A stretch of 64,000 nt of DNA from Pseudomonas taeanensis MS-3 (GTDB lineage: Bacteria > Pseudomonadota > Gammaproteobacteria > Pseudomonadales > Pseudomonadaceae): NCBI RefSeq assembly GCF_000498575.2, contig NZ_AWSQ01000002.1, positions 550,901 through 614,900 of the forward strand, in the 5' to 3' direction. Made by a program: the position numbers and the translations under genes. Position 1 is the stretch's first letter; every line of letters starts with the position of its first letter. The notes under the pieces are model-generated. The model had not been told where the DNA came from, did no database searches, and saw only the letters and a program-made list of their open reading frames with translations. Positions 40,573 through 42,041 of the stretch are shown in pieces.

Positions 40573-41175
40573 GTGAACCTTTTCAATGACAACCAATTGC
40601 ATCTGACGCATGCCGAACTCGACTTTCAGTCGGACTGGCTGGATAGCACGACGGCGGATCTGTGGTTCAACCAATTACTCGATGAAACCCCCTGGCAGCA
40701 ACCGCAGGTGCGGTTGTATGGCCGCGTCTGTCCGGTGCCGCGTCTGCTCGCCTGGTACGGCGATGCCGAGGCCCGTTATCGTTACTCCGGTCAAACTCAT
40801 CAGCCGCTGCCCTGGACGCCGCTGTTGCAGACCATACGTACGCGAGTGGTCGAGGCCGTCGGCGAGCCACTGAACGGCGTGTTGCTCAACTATTACCGCG
40901 ACGGGCAGGACTCCATGGGCTGGCACAGCGACGACGAAGCCGAGCTGGGCCGCGAGCCCTTGGTCGCTTCGCTCAGTCTGGGTGGCACCCGGCGTTTCGA
41001 TCTGCGCCGCAAAGGGCAGTCGCGCATCGAGCACTCCTTAGCGCTTAATCATGGCTCGCTGCTGGTCATGCGCGGGCCGACGCAGCATTATTGGCAGCAC
41101 CAAGTGGCGAAGACGGGCAGCCCCTGTGTGCCGCGCCTGAACCTGACATTCCGCTTAATCCGGTCTCCAGCATGA
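40573..41175 (+). CDS. alkB: alpha-ketoglutarate-dependent dioxygenase AlkB
   Basis: This encodes about 200 residues. AlkB enzymes remove methyl groups from 1-methyladenine and 3-methylcytosine in DNA or RNA using Fe(II) and 2-oxoglutarate. The core is visible: LLNYYRDGQDSMGWHSDDEA with the first Fe ligands H and D (~residue 117), LGREPLVASLSLGGTRRFDL, the third ligand in PTQHYWQHQV (~residues 167-176) and the oxoglutarate-binding VPRLNLTFRLI (~residues 186-196). Size and order fit the ALKBH2/3-like group. The start is uncertain: GTG 40573 is used, and GTG 40513, inside the upstream gene, is an alternative. The stop overlaps the next gene by four bases. Confidence 0.9.
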   Translation: MNLFNDNQLHLTHAELDFQSDWLDSTTADLWFNQLLDETPWQQPQVRLYGRVCPVPRLLAWYGDAEARYRYSGQTHQPLPWTPLLQTIRTRVVEAVGEPLNGVLLNYYRDGQDSMGWHSDDEAELGREPLVASLSLGGTRRFDLRRKGQSRIEHSLALNHGSLLVMRGPTQHYWQHQVAKTGSPCVPRLNLTFRLIRSPA

Positions 41176-41333
41176 GTAATGACGACAAACTGATCGACTT
41201 CGGCGCCGAGCGCGACAAGCGTATCCACGACCTGCGCGACAAGAAGCTCAACGAGATGCGCCAGGCCTTCGAGCAAGCGCTGCCGTTGCCCTCGGGCAAG
41301 AAAAAGTCGAAAAGCAAACCGAAAAAGCGCTGA
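41172..41333 (+). CDS. 53-residue basic protein after alkB
   Basis: This encodes 53 residues: MSNDDKLIDFGAERDKRIHD, then LRDKKLNEMRQAFEQALPLP, ending in a Lys-rich tail (KKKSKSKPKKR). It is probably helical with a disordered nucleic-acid-binding tail. It starts at ATG 41172, which overlaps the alkB stop as ATGA, so it is translated by coupling. Too short to assign; a link to nucleic-acid repair is only suggested by position and charge. Confidence 0.7.
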   Translation: MSNDDKLIDFGAERDKRIHDLRDKKLNEMRQAFEQALPLPSGKKKSKSKPKKR

Positions 41334-41420: not shown

Positions 41421-41434
41421 TTGATCCAGATCAA
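41421..41434 (+). promoter_or_regulatory. ANR/FNR box upstream of ccoM
   Basis: TTGATCCAGATCAA is a perfect match to the TTGAT-N4-ATCAA consensus. A TACCTT at 41457-41462 would be the -10; with transcription starting near 41469 the box centre is at about -41.5, the class II activating position. This predicts oxygen-limited induction of the gene at 41501. Confidence 0.88.
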
Positions 41435-41500
41435 TGCCCGTTGCCTCGCCGCCACGTACCTTGCAGTCATTCCCAGCAAGGACTGGTGCAGGAGGCAAGC

Positions 41501-41617
41501 ATGTTTATCGATGTGGTGGTTCTCGCCGGTATCGGCACCGTCGGCCTGATGGTCGCGTTCTTCGCCGGCGTCGGTTATTTCATCTGGAAGGATTCGCACA
41601 AGCGCAAGACGCGCTGA
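41501..41617 (+). CDS. ccoM: CcoM-like subunit of cbb3 cytochrome c oxidase
   Basis: This encodes 38 residues. It begins MFIDVVVLAGIGTVGLMVAF, followed by FAGVGYFIWKDSHKRKTR, giving one transmembrane helix and a positively charged C-terminus. A strong ribosome site (GCAGGAGG) lies eight bases before ATG 41501. The sequence resembles, from memory, CcoM of P. stutzeri, a small subunit that stabilises cbb3 oxidase. No ccoNOQP genes are in the window, so it is an orphan subunit gene. Its promoter holds a perfect ANR box, consistent with a microaerobic oxidase. A terminator follows 32 bp on. Confidence 0.82.
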   Translation: MFIDVVVLAGIGTVGLMVAFFAGVGYFIWKDSHKRKTR

Positions 41618-41649
41618 ATCCCTCCGGCAACGGGCACGCAAGGCAATTC

Positions 41650-41674
41650 GGGCGACTTAGGTCGCCCTTTTTTT
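41650..41674 (+). terminator. intrinsic terminator of ccoM
   Basis: GGGCGAC (41650-41656), loop TTAG, GTCGCCC (41661-41667), then TTTTTTT. It makes ccoM a monocistronic unit. Confidence 0.92.
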
Positions 41675-41773
41675 GTTTTCTGCATGGGCGCGAGCGCCAG
41701 TTCTCTGCCTGCTCTTGGTTCATCGGTCTGCCCAGTCAGTGCGTGGCAGTGGGGCCTCTGGCGTGGTCGCCAT

Positions 41774-42041
41774 TAGCAGGCCGTTGAAAAACTACTGCGC
41801 TAGGCTATGCCGCGTTGAAATCGGCCCGGGACGCGGCGCCTCAAATGCTCATTTACAACAGGTAAACTGCGCTTTTGATTCGCTACGCTCACCCTGCGAG
41901 CCAGCCTCCGGCTGTTACTCCGCTTCGCTACGTTGCGGCCTTTTTCGCCTTGTGACCCACATGGATGTGGGAAATGCCGTTACCCGTAGGGAACGGGTGC
42001 GGCCCTAGCCGTCGCTCGCTACATTTTTCAACGGCCTGCTA
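41774..42041. mobile_element. MITE-like non-coding element, 268 bp
   Basis: The 18-bp ends TAGCAGGCCGTTGAAAAA (41774-41791) and the exact inverse (42024-42041) enclose 232 bp without a supported gene. If the outer TA is a target duplication, the inverted repeats are the 16 bp beginning GCAGGCC. The interior holds further hairpins, e.g. CCCACAT-GG-ATGTGGG (41956-41971) and ACCCGT-AGGGA-ACGGGT (41982-41998). I recall related sequences with the same ends as a dispersed family in pseudomonads and other bacteria. It lacks a transposase and would need one in trans. Confidence 0.75.

Follow-up and report, generated by a model that had tools for sequence, protein, structure and literature searches.

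Results

Identity of the transcript and of its peptide

We conclude with high confidence that a short locus of Pseudomonas taeanensis MS-3 is a dual-function RNA gene, in which the transcript is that of phrS, its peptide is CcoM, and the RNA half is regulatory. The locus lies in the window that we analyzed, a stretch of 64,000 nt (assembly GCF_000498575.2, contig NZ_AWSQ01000002.1, positions 550,901-614,900, forward strand). The conclusion builds on the membership of the locus in both families, on its promoter architecture and conservation, and on the separate occurrence of RNA and ORF elsewhere, all of which were observed directly. The original prediction had described a CcoM gene under an ANR box; this part holds, but the reading was incomplete, as it missed that the transcript is the small RNA PhrS (Rfam RF01673).

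The covariance model of PhrS matched over its full length (model positions 1-212) at 41466-41676 on the plus strand, with a score of 183.8 bits (gathering score 37) and an E value of 5e-48; the start of the transcript is predicted at about 41469. Inside PhrS lies the intact ccoM ORF (41501-41617, plus strand), which comprises 38 codons, starts with ATG and is preceded, 5 nt ahead of this ATG, by the ribosome-binding site AGGAGG (41490-41495, plus strand). A gene for 38 residues with a strong ribosome site, as initially proposed, is present.

The encoded protein scored 74.5 bits with the NCBIfam equivalog profile NF041600, ‘cytochrome c oxidase subunit CcoM’ (cut-off 40), and matched chain N of PDB entry 5djq with an E value of 2.3e-14 over residues 1-35, in agreement with the predicted resemblance to CcoM. 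We take 5djq to be the cbb3 oxidase of P. stutzeri and its chain N to be the CcoM of this enzyme. Chain N is labelled ‘Putative uncharacterized protein’ in the match, and the name CcoM comes from NCBIfam. In Pfam, the sole match was to FixQ, below threshold (12.3 bits for a cut-off of 29), and was set aside.

The creg pairing element of PhrS has been placed at positions 169-182 of the RNA (PMC9308961). In the window, the creg-like element GCACGCAAGGCA is found at 41634-41645 (plus strand; Rfam model positions 170-181), and its position 3’ of the ccoM ORF fits the published place. It is followed by an intrinsic terminator (GGGCGAC-TTAG-GTCGCCC and then T7) at 41650-41674 on the plus strand, the stem spanning 41650-41667. 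By itself the terminator scan is weak evidence, because 0.6 such sites are expected by chance in the 391 bases scanned. A terminator-like site was however found 3’ of ccoM in 89/89 loci of the genus, compared with 14/652 control windows, which bears out the proposal that ccoM is a one-gene operon ending at a terminator of its own.

The P. aeruginosa phrS locus, a title not met among the 80 best named loci, is represented here by the Rfam consensus, in which the ORF encodes a 38-residue protein that scores 67.2 bits as CcoM (cut-off 40). Since RF01673 matches over ccoM and the ORF of its consensus scores as CcoM, it is very probable that CcoM is the peptide of PhrS. A locus of Stutzerimonas stutzeri (L220) qualifies as both, with 154.1 bits for RF01673, 74.3 bits for NF041600 and an E value of 1.8e-16 for chain N of 5djq. 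PhrS has been described in a review as encoding a 37-aa peptide of elusive function (PMC8395346), and in a second review the function of this peptide is still to be elucidated (PMC9308961). In P. aeruginosa, PhrS is reported to bind Hfq; in a Grad-seq study, which counts against the dual reading, it sedimented like Hfq and was handled as non-coding. No paper was returned by a full-text search that required the whole words PhrS, CcoM and Pseudomonas; many subscription papers lie outside this search, and the identity may already have been published.

Conservation of the ccoM frame

Lack of conservation of the reading frame in related genomes had been named beforehand as a possible refutation. 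The frame was found in 89 of the 99 genomes sampled in the genus. In the order as a whole, CcoM matches were obtained in 77/293 sampled genomes, 67 of them above the cut-off, and the genome of P. taeanensis MS-3 itself contains a single ccoM gene. All the main-copy ccoM loci that were read (163/163; 116 + 47) contained an intact frame started by ATG. The pN/pS ratio was 0.20 (1071 pairs with pS < 0.6), and the entropies at the three codon positions were 0.50, 0.22, and 1.16. By these measures the CcoM protein frame is subject to purifying selection. Codon-level entropy, which was looked at for signs of RNA constraint, was tighter for a few ccoM codons in an uncontrolled comparison, from which we draw nothing.

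An ORF-damaged second copy in one genome (G014) and weak second matches of the order-wide search were excluded from the ccoM counts. The extra PhrS/ccoM copy of G014 (L134) lies 4.8 kb from the intact ccoM and scored 120.8 bits with RF01673; its frame is without the usual ATG start, and no box was found in the 150 nt upstream of it. We also observed Pseudomonas-like ccoM in two records titled Pantoea (L221 and L239), which are perhaps mislabelled Pseudomonas.

A small conserved basic protein of 53 aa is encoded just 5’ of ccoM/phrS in the window (41172-41333). No match to it was found in Pfam and NCBIfam searched at an E value of 0.01. Its gene precedes ccoM in 89/89 loci of the genus and is present in 11/11 ccoM-less genomes examined. 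Because the same small gene is found upstream in all 89 loci, the isolated location of ccoM is normal for the genus. On the other side, a 268-bp MITE-like element (41774-42041) with perfect 18-bp terminal inverted repeats (TAGCAGGCCGTTGAAAAA) separates ccoM/phrS from the next gene. The element has 71 full or partial matches in its own genome, itself included, one of which is located some 360 bp ahead of the third ccoN match (C2:71708).

The ANR box and the promoter

The box noted in the original prediction, a perfect match to TTGAT-N4-ATCAA, was found at 41421-41434 (TTGATCCAGATCAA; no strand assigned), which is the proximal box of the promoter. It is the sole perfect one among 4 sites of the window with ≤1 mismatch, for a mean of 0.73 in shuffled sequences. 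The 5.45-Mb genome contains 12 perfect places, as compared with 1 for a reversed control pattern; several of the 12 sit inside longer reading frames, and not all are promoter-like. The center of the box is 73 nt before the ATG of ccoM. A box with ≤2 mismatches, centered 69-81 nt before the ATG, was present in 89/89 ccoM loci of the genus, versus 39/2436 control intervals of the same size.

With a box at -41.5, as in class II promoters, the start is predicted to fall at about 41469. At class II spacing, the putative -10 hexamer is TACCTT (41457-41462, plus strand). Among 88 distinct promoters of the genus, anchored on the box, an A occupied position -11 in 85 and the expected +1 in 65. The -10-like hexamer and the +1 A are thus conserved at places that fit a box at about -41.5 from a plausible start, as had been proposed, and these data support a conserved class-II-type ANR promoter, the start of which is predicted. 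A sigma-70 scan of the ccoM promoter found nothing, which is what one expects if transcription depends on an activator and a -35 element is missing. A second box (≤2 mismatches) lies about 50 bp upstream in 73/89 loci of the genus; in the window promoter, only the proximal box was found, with no second box about 50 bp upstream.

Only one gene of the genome, at C4:703359, exceeded the cut-off of the Fnr model, and three more CRP/FNR-type matches were weak. The Fnr-type gene adjoins hemN (569 bits, cut-off 325), and one of the 12 perfect boxes is centered 70 nt before the start of hemN. In P. aeruginosa, PhrS has been described as requiring Anr, with measured expression at low oxygen (PMC8395346 and another review), and according to a review phrS expression is abolished in the absence of Anr.

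The ORF and the RNA module occur apart

At the 98 ccoM loci examined in the family, the creg element GCACGCAAGGC always follows the ORF, exactly in 97 and with a single mismatch in the other; of the control windows, 2/757 had it within one mismatch. Among the best 80 named ccoM loci, a set that overlaps with that of the family, it was exact in 79 and had three mismatches in 1. Outside the family, creg within one mismatch was found in 0/65 ccoM loci (18 + 47), which represent every outside-family genome matched in the order-wide CcoM search. A box with ≤2 mismatches was located 60-90 nt before ccoM in 48 of these 65 loci (16/18 + 32/47), and in the set of 47 a box was found at 40-250 nt before ccoM in 45. 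ANR-boxed ccoM therefore exists there without the RNA module. The RF01673 cut-off was passed by 11 of the 13 outside-family ccoM loci scanned, with creg absent; we rejected these matches as PhrS small RNAs, the score being carried by the coding part.

The reverse situation was met within the genus, where some genomes have the RNA module but no ORF. RF01673 was matched in 97 of the 99 genomes, above the cut-off in 96, and these 96 include all 89 with ccoM. The 10 genomes without ccoM had a PhrS RNA above the cut-off in 7 cases, below it in 1 and none in 2, and creg and terminator persist in most genomes of the genus without the ORF. The 900 nt that follow the conserved upstream gene showed no trace of CcoM in the 10 ccoM-less genomes and in G307. 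A box with ≤2 mismatches was kept at 6 of these 11 loci, an uncontrolled count. On the sequence evidence, the two functions, coding and regulatory RNA, are separable. The simplest order would be that a ccoM mRNA came first, that the small RNA module was gained in the family, and that the ORF was lost in some lineages.

Which oxidase CcoM may serve

As the original prediction had it, no ccoNOQP is found in the window, and the subunit would be supplied in trans. ccoN genes above the cut-off, all of them outside the window, were found at C4:689164 and C4:692729, which form a tandem pair, at C2:71708, and on contig C18 of the same genome. This last contig (L165, 3546 bp) shares 99.6% identity with the repeat unit of the tandem cco genes on C4, and its ccoN crosses the contig ends; C18 is either an artefact of assembly or a third cco copy in tandem.

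We built a ccoN tree with 12 genomes that were hand-picked from those with two listed ccoN copies. The first copies of the two operons formed one clade (12/12, support 100/99), and a box with ≤2 mismatches was present within 500 nt upstream of all 12 (≤1 mismatch in 11). No box with ≤1 mismatch was found ahead of the 12 second copies or of 14 lone copies (0/12 and 0/14), and a two-mismatch site preceded 5 second and 4 lone copies. The cco2 operon of P. aeruginosa has been reported to be Anr-induced (PMC5697931), and from gene order and box we infer that the first-copy type corresponds to it.

By protein search, cco2-type ccoN was found in 81/89 genomes of the genus with ccoM versus 0/10 without, cco2-type being defined by our own cut in the score list (≥936 bits, match starting at residue 1 or 2). 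Fisher's test gave a p value of 2.8e-9 for this association; this value overstates the case, because there are about 3 independent events, too few for significance. On a tree of cco1-type ccoN (65 rows), from which G079 (long branch), G026 and G043 (no ccoN) and 32 of the 89 ccoM-bearing genomes were excluded, the minimum number of changes was 3 for ccoM and 5 for cco2. All 3 ccoM changes involved lineages without cco2, and there were 2 independent cco2-ccoM pairs on well-supported branches and 3 on all branches, never in the opposite direction. Seven genomes, which speak against a strict link, kept ccoM without cco2-type ccoN, and another (G075) was of ambiguous type; 3 of these seven (G020, G067, and G084) had three of the four lowest main-copy CcoM scores. 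The association suggests, short of proof, that the ANR-induced oxidase is the main reason for which CcoM is retained. As evidence against the proposed role, CcoN, CcoP, and CcoQ were reported to be less abundant under oxygen limitation in a proteome study of P. stutzeri, in which a complete change to denitrification is suspected.

Discussion

The mechanism that we propose is as follows. A drop in oxygen is expected to bring Anr to the box at -41.5 and to launch transcription of an RNA of some 205 nt, which would be PhrS. Translation of its ORF would give CcoM. This short hydrophobic polypeptide, one of the subunits of the cbb3 cytochrome c oxidase, would be supplied in trans to the distant cco genes and presumably be assembled into the oxidase in P. 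taeanensis. The 3’ part, with creg and terminator, would be the regulatory RNA and probably act on targets in the same species.

One may ask whether the locus produces simply a ccoM mRNA, which would serve to make CcoM only, the Rfam match reflecting conserved coding sequence and the RNA having no regulatory function in this species. That coding sequence can give such a score is indicated by the 11/13 outside-family loci that pass the PhrS cut-off without creg. Yet this explanation, which we consider unlikely, leaves aside both the near-invariance of creg in the family (97/98 exact, versus 2/757 controls within one mismatch) and the persistence of creg and terminator in most ORF-less genomes of the genus. 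Those ORF-less genomes, of which 7/10 pass the PhrS cut-off and 1 falls below it, might rather speak for the converse, namely that PhrS is a small RNA alone and that the ORF is vestigial or its peptide unrelated to the oxidase. We find this hardly credible in view of the purifying selection on the protein, of its equivalog-level CcoM score and match to chain N of 5djq, and of the 163 main-copy loci read, all of which have an intact frame that starts at ATG.

The box could also be bound by another regulator of the CRP/FNR family, for instance of the Dnr type, and the signal be nitric oxide or denitrification instead of oxygen. Half-sites are common across this family, and the genome does contain the three weak further matches. 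We hold this to be unlikely, since just one gene exceeds the Fnr cut-off, the neighboring hemN has a perfect box at a similar spacing, and phrS is reported to be Anr-dependent in P. aeruginosa.

Returning to the dual-function gene, we are evenly divided on a more complete history, according to which PhrS was born from an ANR-driven ccoM message and gained creg and terminator in the family; the hypoxia-induced RNA would then both supply a part of the high-affinity cbb3 oxidase and adjust other genes of respiration and signalling, loss of the ANR-boxed cco2 would have led to decay of the ORF and to a pure small RNA, and the tandem boxes found in most relatives would tune a microaerobic peak. According to a review, PhrS lowers cyoAB, the genes of the bo3 oxidase.

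With this identification the nature of the conserved PhrS peptide would be explained, and a link is made between two bodies of literature without a paper in common in our full-text search, one on a small RNA of quorum sensing and CRISPR, the other on a subunit of cbb3 oxidase. As deletion of the whole phrS gene would remove an oxidase subunit together with the small RNA, phenotypes ascribed to the RNA could be partly respiratory. The natural ORF-less versions of PhrS in the genus offer material for separating both functions.

The promoter may be compared with that of E. coli yfiD, which has two FNR sites. The wild-type yfiD promoter is reported to be more active microaerobically, and deletion of the upstream site to give stronger activity under full anaerobiosis (PMC10208419). 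Two boxes about 50 bp apart are similarly found in 73/89 relatives in the genus, while the window promoter differs by having the proximal box alone. As to the product, the window protein shares its length, hydrophobic stretch, and sequence with CcoM of P. stutzeri (Stutzerimonas), from which it differs by its basic tail, which is longer in the window copy of 38 aa. The resemblance to P. aeruginosa PhrS concerns the whole locus, the full-length match, ORF, creg element, terminator, and ANR-type box all being found in the window. SgrS/SgrT and RNAIII are dual-function small RNAs, in which one RNA combines a short ORF with a region for base pairing. The phrS/ccoM locus resembles them in this arrangement, but its ORF codes for a respiratory enzyme subunit, and its RNA module was apparently added to an older mRNA.
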